Shown here: positions 10,952-48,262 of the stretch, in pieces
Layout: every line of letters begins with the position of its first letter
Position numbering within the stretch: the first letter of the stretch is position 1
Assembly (NCBI GenBank): GCA_030603445.1
Contig: JAUVXU010000001.1
Span: forward strand, 62,001 to 126,000
Length of the DNA: 64,000 nucleotides
Origin: Methanomicrobia archaeon
GTDB taxonomy: Archaea > Methanobacteriota_B > Thermococci > Methanofastidiosales > NM3
Direction of reading: 5' to 3'
Position numbers and translations under genes: made by a program
Notes under the pieces: generated by a model
What the model saw: only the letters and a program-made list of their open reading frames with translations
Database searches by the model: none
What the model was told of the DNA's origin: nothing

Positions 10952-12211
10952 CTACTTAGTTGGGAGTAGTTCATTATTTACTATTTCTTTTATTTTTTTA
11001 AGATACTTCTTATATTCGTAATGTAACGTTTGTGATTTAAAATCAAAGTAAGGCTCTTCAAGTGAGATGCTTTGCTCAAAATAATACCGCATACGGGGAG
11101 CACGAGATTTCCTGCTTTCGTGGTATGAGATGGACCATACGTTGTATCGTATCTTTGAGTTAATAAAAGGGGTGTTTAGCAGTCCCATTATTCTTTCTTT
11201 ATATAGGGGATGGCATCTTATGTGTACACACCAGTGATATTTACCGTAATCATTTTCATTTAGAGATTTGACGAAGGCGCCAGCTTTTAATGTGCGGGCG
11301 CATGCACCAACACTTGCGGCAATCTTTTTCGTGTCATCGTAGTTTTTTCCTGTGAGCATTAGGAAGAAATGGGAGCATTTGTCCTTTGGCATTGGATAAA
11401 CTGTGTAGAATTTGCGTACTATTCCTGCGTTTTTTAGTTTCTCATAAGAATATCGCCATGCATTATATCCAAATATGTAAGGGTTATTCCCTTCCTTGTC
11501 TATTATTTGTGCATCGTGCTTCATTAGTCTAGATAAGTCTCCATTATAATATCCTGATTGTAGGTACATTATAAGGCGCGTATCTAGCAGCGATAGACGC
11601 AGGCGTTTTTCTTTAGTTGCCTCGAAAGCGGGTTTGAATGTTTTGTCAAAGTTTATTTTATCGACAACTAATGGCGTCTCACAAATGTTGTTAGGATTTT
11701 TCGTAAGATGGTATGGATTGTATATATCCAGTAATCCTTCTAGTTCAAATGCGGTGTAATAAAACAAGACCCCTTCGTCTTTTAGATAGTCCATAATTCG
11801 AATTATGGCTTTGGAGTCTGTGTTGTATACGGATACTAGCATCTCGTTGAATACGCCCTCTTCCAAAGGATAGAAGAAGCTCCAGCTATCAATAGTCTGC
11901 AGCAGCGAGATTAGGTAGTCATAAGTGTACTTCTTTGGGAACATTATGAAAAAGATTAACCTATTAACAGGATTCGTTGAGATCTTCGAAAGATCTATCC
12001 AATAGTTCGCTCCGGAAAGATAACCTCTCTTCTTTAGTATGGTATTTTTCACGGTTGATATATAGTTGTAGTATTTAAATCCCACAAGTTTGGCTATTTC
12101 CCTGTCAGTTAGATCCGGCTGATGTCCTAAGATATCTAGAATAGCCATTTGTGAATGGCTTAGCCTTTCATCTTTTTCTAACATTGTTATAGAATTTTCT
12201 AGAGATATCAT
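10952..12211 (-). CDS. HTH transcriptional regulator, unknown ligand
   Basis: About 419 residues from the ATG at 12209-12211; a GTG 36 codons upstream, overlapping the RPA32 stop, is a weaker alternative. Near the N terminus LSHSQMAILDILGHQPDLT and DREIAKLVGF form a helix-turn-helix of LuxR/AsnC type. The rest appears to hold two similar halves, with paired FFIMFPKKYTYD / FFLMLTGKNYDD segments that resemble tandem Lrp-type ligand-binding folds. A GGGAG lies 12 bases before the ATG, further than usual. It follows the RPA operon on the same strand and could be co-transcribed. Its targets are unknown. Confidence 0.6.
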   Translation of the reverse strand: MISLENSITMLEKDERLSHSQMAILDILGHQPDLTDREIAKLVGFKYYNYISTVKNTILKKRGYLSGANYWIDLSKISTNPVNRLIFFIMFPKKYTYDYLISLLQTIDSWSFFYPLEEGVFNEMLVSVYNTDSKAIIRIMDYLKDEGVLFYYTAFELEGLLDIYNPYHLTKNPNNICETPLVVDKINFDKTFKPAFEATKEKRLRLSLLDTRLIMYLQSGYYNGDLSRLMKHDAQIIDKEGNNPYIFGYNAWRYSYEKLKNAGIVRKFYTVYPMPKDKCSHFFLMLTGKNYDDTKKIAASVGACARTLKAGAFVKSLNENDYGKYHWCVHIRCHPLYKERIMGLLNTPFINSKIRYNVWSISYHESRKSRAPRMRYYFEQSISLEEPYFDFKSQTLHYEYKKYLKKIKEIVNNELLPTK

Positions 12212-12253
12212 ATATATAATGCGCTCCCTTGTGGTATAGATGGAGGTGATAAG

Positions 12254-12322
12254 TTGCGTGGATTTCCGCCAGGTTTTGGGCCAGGATTTACTGCACCATG
12301 CATTGATGGAGACCCCCACTAG
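12254..12322 (+). CDS. Candidate 22-residue microprotein
   Basis: A TTG start at 12254-12256 sits three bases after a full nine-base Shine-Dalgarno match, GGAGGTGAT (12242-12250), one of the strongest in the window. The peptide contains GFPPGFGPGF and ends CIDGDPH before TAG. An AT-rich TATA-like stretch at 12205-12219 is about 25 bases before the likely transcript start. It is divergent from the HTH gene, and its last bases overlap the stop codon of RPA32. It could be a leader peptide, a secreted microprotein or a chance match. Confidence 0.4.
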   Translation: MRGFPPGFGPGFTAPCIDGDPH

Positions 12323-13089
12323 GCTAACATATAGTGGCCTATGGCTGGTTCAAATATATCTCCAAGTGATAACAGTGATTTAAGTGCTTCCTCAATTTCT
12401 GCAGTAGTGAACTTAGAATCTAGTTCGGCTATAAGTACATCTAGCTCAACGCCTTTCTCATCGCTTTGGAGACTCACTATTTTTTCTAATATTTGTTTTT
12501 TTACTATTTCAAGATTTTGTACATTAACAGATTCGTCCCTTTCTTTTTCAAGGAGATAATCAAGTTCGTCAATCCCCTCTAATATCTCCGGGGCTATGTT
12601 TTCTTTACTTGCAAGTTCTAGGGCTTTTCTCATCGCTCCGGTAGTCTCCATCAACTCACGTGCACGAAAAGCTGTTTTCTTGAAATGCAGCACACGTGCT
12701 ACTGTTTCAGCACGCGCCAAAAGAAGGAATTCCGGTGATACAGAAGTTACTGCTTCTATAGTGAGCTGCTTGTTGTCCTGCCATTCCCTAGGTTTTGCAA
12801 TTAGTTGAACGAGCATGCCTCGCTCTAAAGGTTTTATAAGCTGGGCGCGCTCCCTAAACGCAGATCCCCACATCGTGGCAGTAGTATCATCAAGCAGTAT
12901 TCTTGCATAAGAGTCGTCGTCACTAAAATATGGCCCAGAAACTATTGTTGCAACGATTTTGGCACGGTGGATTTTTTCCCCATTTTTAGTAAGAATATAG
13001 TTTGGGTCAAAATCTCCCTCTTTTTCTACATAGTAGCCTGTTTGTAATTCTGATAGGTATACTCGTTTTGCTGGAAGTCGTTTCTTCAT
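12319..13089 (-). CDS. rpa32: RPA32-like subunit (OB fold plus winged helix)
   Basis: About 256 residues from the ATG at 13087-13089, preceded by GGAGG seven bases upstream; an ATG five codons earlier lies within that site. An OB fold spans about residues 40-125, including YARILLDDTTATMWG and RGMLVQLIAKPREW. A helical linker follows, then a C-terminal winged helix (about 195-256) of the type used for protein contacts. It matches the RPA-associated family that includes Pyrococcus RPA32. Its start overlaps the end of rpa14 by four bases, forming the operon rpa41-rpa14-rpa32. It should bind single-stranded DNA as part of the heterotrimer. Confidence 0.88.
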   Translation of the reverse strand: MKKRLPAKRVYLSELQTGYYVEKEGDFDPNYILTKNGEKIHRAKIVATIVSGPYFSDDDSYARILLDDTTATMWGSAFRERAQLIKPLERGMLVQLIAKPREWQDNKQLTIEAVTSVSPEFLLLARAETVARVLHFKKTAFRARELMETTGAMRKALELASKENIAPEILEGIDELDYLLEKERDESVNVQNLEIVKKQILEKIVSLQSDEKGVELDVLIAELDSKFTTAEIEEALKSLLSLGDIFEPAIGHYMLA

Positions 13090-13385
13090 ATACGTTCCTC
13101 CCATTTTTTGATCTTGTGGTATATATCCATATCCACAGAGGAGAAGTCTTGAATAACTTCTGCGTTTATGCCTTTTCCCATCTCAAAGGGCTTTCCGATG
13201 ACCCGTATGACAGTTCCTATTTCATAGAGTTTGTCTCCAAATATTGTTATTTGCCCTGTGCCATCGTCTATAATCATGGTGTAATCATTCGGGTTAGACC
13301 TAATTACAGTACCTATAACGGTAACATAATCGTCTTCCTCTTCTATCTCCACTATTTCTTTTTCAACAGCAGGATTTCTACTCAC
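13086..13385 (-). CDS. rpa14: RPA14-like small OB-fold subunit
   Basis: About 99 residues from a GTG at 13383-13385 that overlaps the end of rpa41; GGAG lies ten bases upstream. An open frame continues upstream, but that part lies inside rpa41 and is not conserved-looking. The sequence is one OB fold: VTVIGTVIRSNPNDYTMIIDD, GTGQITIFGD, IGTVIRVIGKPFE. Size, order and neighbours match RPA14 of the Pyrococcus heterotrimer. Four-base overlap with rpa32 implies coupled translation. Confidence 0.82.
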   Translation of the reverse strand: MSRNPAVEKEIVEIEEEDDYVTVIGTVIRSNPNDYTMIIDDGTGQITIFGDKLYEIGTVIRVIGKPFEMGKGINAEVIQDFSSVDMDIYHKIKKWEERI

Positions 13386-14412
13386 CGTAATCACACTCCA
13401 GAATAGATAGGACGTTTTGTGTCTCTTTGTTAAATTCCAGGGGCCTAATATCCTGAACATTGATATTTATCCCAGTATACTCATTTTCTGAGATAGACCC
13501 TATAAGCACTATCTCCTTTCCAAGAATATCTGGTTTTTTCTCTAGGATGTACTCAAGGCCAGCGCTCTTTCCTGTGTATCCTGCATCAAGGTAGCCTTGT
13601 AGATCACGTGCTATGTTATCTGGGGACTCTCCGAGGAGTTCTGATGCGCTGTCGCTAAACAAGACGGCCCGGATGTGGTTTGTTCCATCATCTATTCCTA
13701 TCTCAACTACCATGGCTTTCTTCGGAACAATGCGTATCTTGCAGTTATCACAAAAGAAGGAATCTTTTGATTTAATGGCCCGTTTATGACATGTAGGACA
13801 AGCATCATAGATAAGAAGACGGTATATATTGGATATAGTCGCCCTTATCTCTATCGAATGTTCTCCTGGGGATATGTCTATTAGTTTTTTTCTCACTACA
13901 TTTTGAGGGGATTTGTATGTAAGTTCTGGGAAATTGCTTTCATCCTCTACTATGATCCTGCCTTTGTAACCGAGGCGTAGTTGTGGGCCTGACGGCCCTT
14001 TTACAGATATGCAATTTATTAGGCGTATCACATTGCCATCATGAATTTTATTATATATGTCTAATTCTCTGTCCCATAAAGTCAAATATATCTTTCCTGT
14101 TGGGTCTCCAAGAAGGAATGATTGAAGCTGTTTTTTCTTCTTGTCTTCCTTGATGAATTCTTTTTTATCGAAAACTCGTAGCACACGAGTAATTAAATGT
14201 AGATTCATAAGCCCATCGGTTATTTTATCGATTGTGAGCTCTGGCGATTCAACTGTTTCTGTTATGCCATGTTCTGCAGCAATTAGGGAGATTATTCCCT
14301 CATCAGTTATGTGGGACCCAATAGACTCCTTTTTTTCATTTATCATACGTTCTATGGCGTCTTCTCCGAATCCTTTTTCTTTAAGTAATACGACGAGTTC
14401 ATCTATTCCCAT
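13378..14412 (-). CDS. rpa41: RPA41-like large subunit of the RPA heterotrimer
   Basis: Main single-stranded-DNA-binding subunit, about 344 residues. The start is the ATG at 14410-14412, with AAGGTGA just upstream; a GTG three codons earlier falls in that site. An N-terminal helical region (about 1-55) is followed by an OB fold (LITRVLRVFDKKEF, KIYLTLWDRE). The second OB fold holds a zinc ribbon, CPTC with FFCDNC, at about residues 204-225. It is first in the rpa41-14-32 operon. The divergent neighbour is the THUMP-Nudix fusion, about 100 bases away across a shared AT-rich promoter region. Confidence 0.9.
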   Translation of the reverse strand: MGIDELVVLLKEKGFGEDAIERMINEKKESIGSHITDEGIISLIAAEHGITETVESPELTIDKITDGLMNLHLITRVLRVFDKKEFIKEDKKKKQLQSFLLGDPTGKIYLTLWDRELDIYNKIHDGNVIRLINCISVKGPSGPQLRLGYKGRIIVEDESNFPELTYKSPQNVVRKKLIDISPGEHSIEIRATISNIYRLLIYDACPTCHKRAIKSKDSFFCDNCKIRIVPKKAMVVEIGIDDGTNHIRAVLFSDSASELLGESPDNIARDLQGYLDAGYTGKSAGLEYILEKKPDILGKEIVLIGSISENEYTGININVQDIRPLEFNKETQNVLSILECDYGE

Positions 14413-14461
14413 CTTTTTCACCTTAACACGTTATATCAATGATATTTTAGATGCTTTTTCC

Positions 14462-14513: not shown

Positions 14514-15794
14514 GTGAATTGTTATTTAATTCGTTATGCGGAGATTGGAATAAAATCCTCCCAGATACGAAATAAGTGGTTACACCAATTAAGGCAGAAT
14601 ATAGAAAGATGCCTTTTTTGGAACGCCGTATCATTTGGCCGCGTTGTTATAGTTCAAGGTAGGCTTATAGTATATTCTAATGACAAAAAGGCGGCCGACG
14701 CTATGCACCATGTTATGGGGATATCCTCAATATCTCCTGCCACAGAAATTGATTTGGATATGGGGGAGCTAAAAAACGTTGCATTAAGGATTTATCACGA
14801 AAGGAATCCAAAGACATTTAGAATATCCACTCAGCGCGTTACAAAAGATTACCAACTTACCTCCCAAGAGATCAATGAACAGATCGGCGAGGCCGTTTAT
14901 GAGGCCGGCGGGACAGTAAGCCTAACAAAGCATGAGCTTAACATATCTTTTGAAATTATCAATGACAAAGCATACGTCTTTACCGAAGTCAACAGAGGAG
15001 TCGGTGGCCTTCCACTCGGTGTGCAAAATGTTGGCTGTGCTGTCGTAAAAACACTTCGCGATTTAGTGGCCTGTTGGTTATTTATGAGGCGGGGATGCCC
15101 TGTTGAGGTCGTAGCATATAACACTAATCACACGAGCATTTACATTGACATATTGCAGTCATTTGCCTGTAGCGGCCTGAGAATACAACTTATCAATAGC
15201 ACAGATGATCTAAAGGAAGTTCTGCCTTCGTATCTTAAGCGTGATATCGAGGTAGTTGTCAGTGGCACACAAATCGATGCCCCGGAAGGCATGGTAAACT
15301 TATGCCCATGTGAACTTTTCACTACCATTCAGTTAAATGACACGCTTCGTATGGCCGGAATAGTTCTTCCACACCCTATCGAAAATCATATGCTCTCTGC
15401 AGGAGGGATCGTCTACAAAGACAATAAAATTTTTCTTTTTAGGCGAAAGGATGAAAGGACATGGCTGCTCCCAAAAGGTGGGGCGGATAACAAGGAGCAT
15501 CTTAGAGAGGCGGCATTGCGTGAAATATGTGAGGAAACTGGTCTGTGCAATGTAGATATTGGTGATATGGTTGGAAAGGCGCAGTACTCATTTGTTAGGG
15601 AAGGCATAAAATACACCAAAGATGTTTACTATTATCTGTGCACTACTTGCGACGAGCTAGTTACTTTAGAACCACTCTTTGACGATCATGCTTTCTTAAG
15701 TCCGAATGATGCGGAAAAACGTGCCACATTCGTGAACGACAAAAGAATGATAAGGTGTTCGCAACGGCTCCGCGACGCACGCAGACGTTCATAA
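14514..15794 (+). CDS. ThiI-like THUMP / degenerate PP-loop / Nudix fusion
   Basis: 426 residues, GTG start. The first ~175 residues follow ThiI: LIRYAEIGIKS, the NFLD/THUMP region (FRISTQRVTKDYQ, EINEQIGEAV) and GGLPLG. Where ThiI has the PP-loop ATP site SGGxDS, this protein reads CAVVKTLRDLVACWLF, so the nucleotide site is lost, although the following MRRGCPVEVVAYN strand is kept. From about residue 300 a complete Nudix domain is fused on, with box GGADNKE...REICEETGL near residue 320. THUMP should bind tRNA; Nudix enzymes hydrolyse nucleoside diphosphate derivatives. The function is not known. It is transcribed away from the RPA operon. Confidence 0.8.
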   Translation: MNCYLIRYAEIGIKSSQIRNKWLHQLRQNIERCLFWNAVSFGRVVIVQGRLIVYSNDKKAADAMHHVMGISSISPATEIDLDMGELKNVALRIYHERNPKTFRISTQRVTKDYQLTSQEINEQIGEAVYEAGGTVSLTKHELNISFEIINDKAYVFTEVNRGVGGLPLGVQNVGCAVVKTLRDLVACWLFMRRGCPVEVVAYNTNHTSIYIDILQSFACSGLRIQLINSTDDLKEVLPSYLKRDIEVVVSGTQIDAPEGMVNLCPCELFTTIQLNDTLRMAGIVLPHPIENHMLSAGGIVYKDNKIFLFRRKDERTWLLPKGGADNKEHLREAALREICEETGLCNVDIGDMVGKAQYSFVREGIKYTKDVYYYLCTTCDELVTLEPLFDDHAFLSPNDAEKRATFVNDKRMIRCSQRLRDARRRS

Positions 15795-16125: not shown

Positions 16126-17517
16126 ATGAAACGCCAATCTAATGCTATTGTTGCATCTTTTTTTATCCTTGCTATTATTGGATTATCAGTATTCTCTGGT
16201 TGTATAAATGGCGATATAAACATCACGTCCGAGCCAAAAGTTGTGGATTCGGATGGCGACGGCATTCAGGATGTCTACGATAAGTGCCCATTTATCTATG
16301 GCCCCATATCAAACGATGGTTGTCCTGTTGAGGACTTGGATACCCCAGACTTGGATACCCCACCTCCAACTACCACAGTTGCACCCACCACACAGCCACC
16401 AACGACCACTTCTCCCCCAACATCGCCACCGGCATCAACCCTTCCACCAACAACAGCTCCTCCAACACCCCTCCCTTCCCTAAAAAATTCTGATTGGCCG
16501 ATGAGGGGATATGATATTGAAGCTACGGGATACACTCAAAGTTCTGGCATAGTAGTTCAGGCAACACAATGGACTTATCCTCTACTAAACTATGTTTCCT
16601 CCGTTCCTTCAGTAGGGTATGGGAACGTGTATGTGGGGGACGTGGACGGGAATTTTTACTGCATGGACCAGACAACCGGGGGGCTTAAGTGGACATACAA
16701 GGCGCGAGATCAGATTATTTCCACACCAGCACTTTACAAGGGAAAAGTGTACTTTGGTTCTTACGATAGATATGTTTATTGTTTGGATGCCGTTACTGGC
16801 GATCTTGTCTGGAAATACAGGACGGGGGATGCTGTGTATTCCTCTGCATTCGTGTACAGGGATAAGGCATATATAGGGTCATGGGACGGAAAGATGTATT
16901 GCTTTGATGCAGGTACGGGCGAAGTTATATGGGATTTTGACACAGGTGCCCTTATACTATCCTCACCTTCCTATTCCAATGGCAGCGTTGTGTTTGGAAA
17001 CGATAATGGAAATATGTACTGCCTTAATTATCTTGACGGATCCCTTATATGGGCAACGAATATACCCCATTGCACGATATATGCTACCCCCGCCATTTAT
17101 GAAGAAAGGATATTTATCACAATGTCATCGCGCGACGTTATTTGTCTGGATGAAAAAACAGGAAATCAATTGTGGACATATACTACAAAAGATATCATTC
17201 ATACCTCTGTGGCAGTTCATGACGGCATGGTCTATGCAACATCATTCGATTCTTTTATATACTGTCTAGATGCTTATTCTGGCACACTGTTGTGGCTGCA
17301 TAAGACATCAGATACCGCTTCCACCCCAACAATTTCCAATGGGGTTGTGTATTTGTTGGAAAGTGACGGTCTTGTTTGCTTGAATGCAACAACAGGGATG
17401 GCGGAGTCCAGGTATCCTGCGTCCGGATTCAAGGGGTTATCAGCGATACTAGCAGATTCCCTTCTTTACTTCACTTCGGGAAATACGTTGTACTGCCTTG
17501 GGTATATCACAAATTAG
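16126..17517 (+). CDS. Surface lipoprotein: calcium-binding repeat, Pro/Thr stalk, PQQ-type beta-propeller
   Basis: 463 residues. The signal peptide ends in a lipobox (FSGC at about 22-25), so the mature protein is anchored outside the membrane. Next is a thrombospondin-3-like calcium loop, DSDGDGIQDVYDKCP, then a Pro/Thr-rich stalk (about 70-120) that could be glycosylated. From about 125 to the end there are seven or eight repeats with GxVYxGxxDGxxYCLD and TGxxxWxY, the PQQ-like (BamB-like) propeller pattern. The propeller probably binds proteins or a ligand; PQQ itself is not implied. A TATA-like TTTAATATATAGG at about 16094-16106 implies a short leader. Confidence 0.85.
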   Translation: MKRQSNAIVASFFILAIIGLSVFSGCINGDINITSEPKVVDSDGDGIQDVYDKCPFIYGPISNDGCPVEDLDTPDLDTPPPTTTVAPTTQPPTTTSPPTSPPASTLPPTTAPPTPLPSLKNSDWPMRGYDIEATGYTQSSGIVVQATQWTYPLLNYVSSVPSVGYGNVYVGDVDGNFYCMDQTTGGLKWTYKARDQIISTPALYKGKVYFGSYDRYVYCLDAVTGDLVWKYRTGDAVYSSAFVYRDKAYIGSWDGKMYCFDAGTGEVIWDFDTGALILSSPSYSNGSVVFGNDNGNMYCLNYLDGSLIWATNIPHCTIYATPAIYEERIFITMSSRDVICLDEKTGNQLWTYTTKDIIHTSVAVHDGMVYATSFDSFIYCLDAYSGTLLWLHKTSDTASTPTISNGVVYLLESDGLVCLNATTGMAESRYPASGFKGLSAILADSLLYFTSGNTLYCLGYITN

Positions 17518-47835: not shown

Positions 47836-48262
47836 ACAAAAACGGCCTTCATTGGCAGTAGATGGTTTTTTGACCGACGGAAAATACATACTGCTCATAC
47901 GCCGTAAAAATCCGCCATACGAATCTTTCTGGGCTTTACCAGGCGGTTTTGTAGAATACGGGGAAACGGTCGAAAATGCCGTTATAAGGGAAATAAAGGA
48001 GGAAACAGGGCTTGTTATTTTTGCCCCAATTCTAATAGGGGTGTTCTCTAAGAAGAATAGAGATCCTCGTGGCCATGTGGTGTCATGCGCTTTTTTGTGC
48101 AATCATACCCTAGAGAACTTCTCACCAGGCAGCGATGCAGCAGATGCTAGAATATTTGAGCTTGGCAACATGCCAAAGAACATCGCATTTGATCATCAGG
48201 ACATAATCAAGCAAGGCAAAAAACTTTTAAATGGTTCTGGCTATTTTATGAATATAAAATAG
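47828..48262 (+). CDS. Nudix hydrolase
   Basis: 144 residues. A complete Nudix box, GGFVEYGETVENAV then REIKEETGL, is near residues 38-60. Preceding LLIRRKNPPYESFWALPGG is typical of ADP-ribose pyrophosphatases or MutT-like enzymes. Substrate not fixed. It overlaps the signal peptidase gene by eight bases and is followed closely by the lipid synthase. Confidence 0.9.
   Translation: MHKQKRPSLAVDGFLTDGKYILLIRRKNPPYESFWALPGGFVEYGETVENAVIREIKEETGLVIFAPILIGVFSKKNRDPRGHVVSCAFLCNHTLENFSPGSDAADARIFELGNMPKNIAFDHQDIIKQGKKLLNGSGYFMNIK

Follow-up and report, generated by a model that had tools for sequence, protein, structure and literature searches.

The window, that is, the whole stretch of 64,000 nucleotides that was analysed, contains a gene encoding an N-terminal ferredoxin-like domain (NFLD) of the ThiI type, a THUMP domain, a degenerate PP-loop region and a Nudix domain in a single chain (Table 1). 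In all three species in which this fusion was found, the gene is located between an RPA operon on the minus strand (window 10952-14421) and iorBA on the plus strand. The divergent orientation relative to the RPA operon, pointed out in an earlier sequence-only reading, is thus kept in all three. A gene for a beta-propeller-like lipoprotein, recognised by eye, was observed between the fusion gene and iorB (window 16126-17517); the other two species lack it. Beyond iorBA, downstream of iorA, the related loci L041 and L042 contain in conserved order the genes for a 555-aa multi-OB RPA-like protein, RadA and RNase HII (assigned by eye).

Table 1. Features of the fusion locus (positions in the window).
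Feature	Position	Strand	Remarks
Fusion gene, NFLD + THUMP + degenerate PP-loop + Nudix	14514..15794	+	426 aa, GTG start; fusion common to three species
ThiI N-terminal ferredoxin-like domain (ThiI_fer)	14523..14735	+	residues 4-74; Pfam PF22025, 1.2e-10
THUMP domain	14760..14984	+	residues 83-157; PF02926, 8.7e-11
Shortened degenerate PP-loop region	15000..15377	+	residues ~163-288; aligned to intact, dead and stand-alone relatives
Nudix domain with complete Nudix box	15390..15737	+	residues 293-408; PF00293, 8.8e-16
Divergent neighbour, RPA-like OB-fold protein	13381..14421	-	synteny with the fusion conserved; no functional link claimed

The ThiI-like character of the N-terminal half, proposed in the sequence-only reading, was confirmed by Pfam, which detected both ThiI_fer and THUMP above cut-off. 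The match to the ThiI model TIGR00342 covers residues 5-205 only, and its score of 116.5 bits is below the cut-off of 264.5. In the alignment with Thermotoga maritima ThiI (4KR6), Lys104, Asn122 and Gly126 of the latter correspond to R103, N121 and G125, which are invariant across the three fusion proteins; the residues at the positions of Tyr119 and Ser123 are changed. No PP-loop family was detected by Pfam in the 426-aa protein. The reported loss of the ATP-binding motif is borne out by comparison with intact relatives, which have SGGIDSP or SSGIDSP where the fusion has KTL-RDLV. In the alignment to relatives, the catalytic CxxC with the third cysteine and the GQVASQT loop are also absent from the PP-loop region. 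Profile comparisons of this remnant with dead and intact relatives support 29-57 columns, and its homology is firm for about the first 30-60 residues only. The AlphaFold model, built from a three-row alignment, is poor, with a mean pLDDT of 59, a pTM of 0.38 and the lowest values across the PP-loop remnant.

The Nudix box, GGADNKEHLREAALREICEETGL, fits the consensus GX5EX7REUXEEXGU, in agreement with the complete box noted earlier at the C terminus. Across the three species no change is seen at the G/E/R/E/E/E/G positions; in one homologue the last U is alanine. The domain scores 58.6 bits with PF00293, above the cut-off of 21.1. Its best match of solved structure is the Ap4A hydrolase of Aquifex (3I7U, 1.5e-12, residues 4-131 of 136), and the next ones include Ndx1 and another diadenosine tetraphosphate hydrolase. 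Within the order, the closest relatives are stand-alone family f3 Nudix proteins of 140-155 aa with about 30% identity. The domain is an addition specific to this lineage and most similar to Ap4A hydrolases. An active enzyme of this kind is expected, with Ap4A-type dinucleotides as its probable substrates. A PADLOC match to PDC-S07 (27.8 bits, Nudix part only) was dismissed as generic Nudix similarity.

The identical architecture was observed in two more species, in proteins of about 420 residues encoded on contigs DSAJ01000010 (a MAG labelled Methanomicrobia) and JAFGGT010000031 (Candidatus Methanofastidiosia), with 53% and 47% identity to the window protein over the full length. The fusion is therefore not unique to one assembly, the case that the sequence-only reading named as a refutation, and full-length homologues in two independent MAGs exclude a frame-joining or assembly error. 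Both of these records come from MAGs, and 48 contigs make up the assembly of the window genome, which is what could be said for an artefact of assembly or annotation or for a decaying gene. However, the three species come from three independent assemblies, and their genes have no stops, are 47-54% identical at the protein level over the whole length, and share the invariant Nudix residues and the synteny. We consider an artefact or a decaying gene extremely improbable. In one species, a second, separate Nudix gene (184 aa) is located directly downstream of the fusion (L041 1827-2378).

No complete fusion beyond these three was found among 115 genomes of the phylum, and a search of an 85k-species contig collection with two short peptide patterns returned the same two homologues only. 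The fusion was not seen in G001 and G003, two further relatives of the family, but their contigs start a short way downstream of the site and lack the specific RPA neighbour as well. The locus lies outside these contigs, so the observation is uninformative and real absence cannot be claimed. As far as seen, the fusion is a feature of one Methanofastidiosales family.

The best relative of solved structure is PH1313 of Pyrococcus horikoshii (1VBK), with 1.4e-29 over residues 1-198. This ThiI-like protein lacks conserved residues, has a shortened PP-loop domain and has no known activity (PMC9957541). It is encoded by G041, a Pyrococcus genome from one of the sister lineages in the class. We use the term PH1313 type for NFLD-THUMP proteins with a shortened PP-loop lacking the motif, for which no formal family model was found. 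Two further families of the order have such proteins without a Nudix domain, and so do Pyrococcus and some Thermococcus-like genomes. Judged from these relatives, the dead PP-loop is a trait of the PH1313 type and not an oddity of the fusion alone.

No intact full-length ThiI was found in the window genome. Its contig C34 encodes a 202-aa stand-alone PP-loop protein (L033 716-1321) that matches positions 173-370 of TIGR00342 and retains SDGIDSP, CVLC with the third cysteine, and GENLGQVASQT. Its score with PRK08349/NF006222, a model of stand-alone PP-loop proteins named "hypothetical protein", is 195.7 bits, below the cut-off of 251. Stand-alone PP-loop ThiI domains of this kind (about 200 aa, without THUMP) were found in 18 of the 19 genomes with a dead-PP-loop THUMP protein. 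Where the dead form is the only THUMP-ThiI (16 genomes), the stand-alone domain is present in 15, the exception being G004, a MAG with 84% completeness. On the other hand, all ten sister-family genomes having only an intact 367-aa ThiI lack it. These genomes are related, and thus the counts do not represent independent events. The reverse relationship fails: an intact ThiI is accompanied by a stand-alone gene in many Thermococcus genomes and unaccompanied in some. All 13 aligned stand-alone proteins retain the motifs S-x-GIDSP, CxxC and GQVASQT; the catalytic motif of the window's genus is SDGIDSP instead of SGGIDSP.

A stop/start overlap joins the dead THUMP gene to the catalytic gene in three Thermococcaceae genomes, G058, G079 and G084. 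The overlapping pairs are found at L127 272-1794, L128 31-1553 and L121 1188-2710. An intact ThiI gene and a stand-alone gene are located in one cluster in G045. In the window's genus, the stand-alone catalytic gene is directly downstream of the gene for SepCysS (TIGR02539, 479.7 bits, cut-off 365), another tRNA-directed sulfur enzyme; these pairs are at L033 22-1321, L034 1489-3246 and L035 1489-3245. In P. horikoshii, the PH1313 gene (L118 140-1066, minus strand) and that of its candidate partner, a PP-loop ThiI domain (L111 584-1186, plus strand), are located apart. The gene order supports a joint role of the dead THUMP genes and the catalytic genes. In the tree of THUMP parts, the dead form of G058 groups with an intact ThiI (97/96), apart from the dead forms of Pyrococcus. 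This suggests that the PP-loop was lost more than once; horizontal transfer is possible.

Dead-PP-loop THUMP proteins are thus common without the Nudix domain and nearly always accompanied by a separate PP-loop domain, which points to s4U8 synthesis split over two chains. The earlier suggestion of a tRNA-linked reaction new to ThiI is not upheld by this pattern. Starting from the observed domains, dead and intact motifs, conservation, co-occurrence and gene neighbourhoods, we propose that the archaeal 4-thiouridine synthase (ThiI/TtuI) is split here and that the fusion, with its added Nudix domain, is the subunit that binds tRNA but does not catalyse; we give this model about an even chance. 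The acceptor stem and the CCA end of the tRNA would be gripped by the NFLD and THUMP domains, the PP-loop remnant would serve for docking to the separate 202-aa protein, and the latter would adenylate and thiolate U8 in trans. Such a heterodimer, in which the chain with the inactive PP-loop remnant holds the tRNA and a chain lacking THUMP does the catalysis, would then retain one functional site. The Nudix domain would clear Ap4A-type dinucleotides, possibly arising from attack of ATP on the adenylated intermediate. In this model we infer the formation of the complex, s4U8 as its product and the substrate of the Nudix domain.

The two-chain geometry is permitted by the trans presentation in the ThiI dimer: in T. 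maritima ThiI, one subunit binds the RNA with its NFLD and THUMP domains and offers it to the PP-loop site of its counterpart, and the subunits dimerise mainly through their PP-loop domains (PMC4041423). Several observations speak against the split synthase. The remnant aligns over about 30-60 residues only and may no longer offer a docking surface. The genes of the fusion and of the partner presumed for it are on different contigs, and the catalytic motif of that partner in the window's genus, SDGIDSP, deviates from SGGIDSP. The stand-alone genes found beside intact ThiI in most Thermococcus may mean that the stand-alone proteins have another job.

One alternative is that dead-PP-loop THUMP proteins act by themselves, as tRNA chaperones or regulators with no relation to s4U8, and that the Nudix domain is just the Ap4A hydrolase of the cell joined to a protein that binds tRNA, perhaps as a sensor of stalled aminoacylation. 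The single other Nudix protein of the window genome (window 47852-48211) is of another kind, so that the fused domain is the only Ap4A-hydrolase-like one in this genome. Stand-alone relatives of the domain occur in the sister family, and aminoacyl-tRNA synthetases are a major source of Ap4A (PMC10148737). The strong co-occurrence of dead THUMP proteins with the stand-alone ThiI catalytic domain, and the overlap of their genes, speak against this explanation, which we consider unlikely.

For the split synthase, a possible origin of the dinucleotide can be named. ThiI adenylates U8. Adenylate-forming enzymes, RNA ligases included, yield Ap4A when ATP attacks the adenylate (PMC10148737). Taken together, these properties mean that a tethered Ap4A hydrolase could clear the by-product, and our hypothesis, by analogy, is that the Ap4A cleared by the Nudix domain possibly stems from U8 adenylation.

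Another possibility is tRNA end processing guided by THUMP, with thiolation irrelevant. Here the substrate of the Nudix domain would be the tRNA 5' end, adjacent to the CCA held by THUMP, and the candidate targets would be a triphosphate, an Np4 or NAD-type cap, or some other pyrophosphate-linked adduct. The Nudix box is intact, the Nudix group in question includes RNA pyrophosphohydrolases, and the CCA-binding residues are partly retained. THUMP is, moreover, combined with many catalytic domains, as in ThiI, Trm14/TrmN, CDAT8 and TrmTS (PMC9957541, PMC12255305). RppH models indeed match the fusion at 1e-7, but the best score, 30.9 bits, is far below the NCBIfam equivalog cut-off of 116-118. 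Leaderless or triphosphorylated tRNA was rejected as a target, as 13 of the 14 genomes tested, the window's included, encode RNase P RNA, and tRNA 5' ends are thus normally made. Thg1-made 5'-adenylated tRNA was rejected likewise: Thg1, which could leave adenylated or triphosphorylated tRNA, was found in none of the 14. End processing also leaves the link between dead THUMP proteins and separate PP-loop proteins unexplained. Action on tRNA 5' ends is unsupported and, in our view, unlikely. Of the cap removal suggested in the sequence-only reading, the intact box and the placement in the Ap4A-hydrolase/RppH-like group stand; no tie to a tRNA substrate was found, with RNase P present and Thg1 absent.

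The two ideas can be combined: within a split synthase, a THUMP-guided Nudix domain might remove a pyrophosphate-linked group (a 5' cap, an Np4 end or an adenylated by-product of thiolation) from tRNA as clean-up or proofreading. This appears rather improbable. If true, this would give THUMP proteins a Nudix activity directed at tRNA, of which no example is known among them.

Compared with known systems, the fusion shares with PH1313 the NFLD, the THUMP domain and a PP-loop domain without the motif and the C-terminal part; PH1313 differs by having no Nudix domain and a less diverged PP-loop remnant. ThiI/TtuI (TIGR00342; 2C5S, 4KR6) has the same NFLD, THUMP and domain order, but also the PP-loop motif, the catalytic cysteines and the dimer-interface loop, which in the window genome are on the separate 202-aa protein. 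The Nudix part resembles the Ap4A hydrolases of A. aeolicus (3I7U) and T. thermophilus (Ndx1) over the whole domain, including W..PKG, the Nudix box and K.V.YY. Unlike them, it is joined to a THUMP protein, and its Ap4A activity is a prediction from sequence. TrmTS (TK1257), an NFLD-THUMP-SPOUT methyltransferase, also combines THUMP with an unexpected catalytic domain (PMC12255305), but this is SPOUT instead of Nudix, and there is no PP-loop remnant.

In the literature searched for THUMP paired with Nudix, no THUMP-Nudix protein is described, nor is a split ThiI described in the literature found, which does not cover the main archaeal TtuI study. What is likely new here is the addition of a Nudix domain to a PH1313-type protein, together with a likely role for this type. 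PH1313, whose structure has been available for about twenty years, was deposited with no function assigned to it. Co-occurrence and overlapping genes now point to a concrete and testable role: it would present tRNA within a 4-thiouridine synthase of two chains, the catalytic one being annotated as "hypothetical protein". If this is true, the presentation of tRNA in trans, as in the ThiI dimer, can turn during evolution into a real division of tasks between two proteins. The Nudix fusion raises the question of whether adenylate-forming tRNA enzymes need dinucleotide clean-up.
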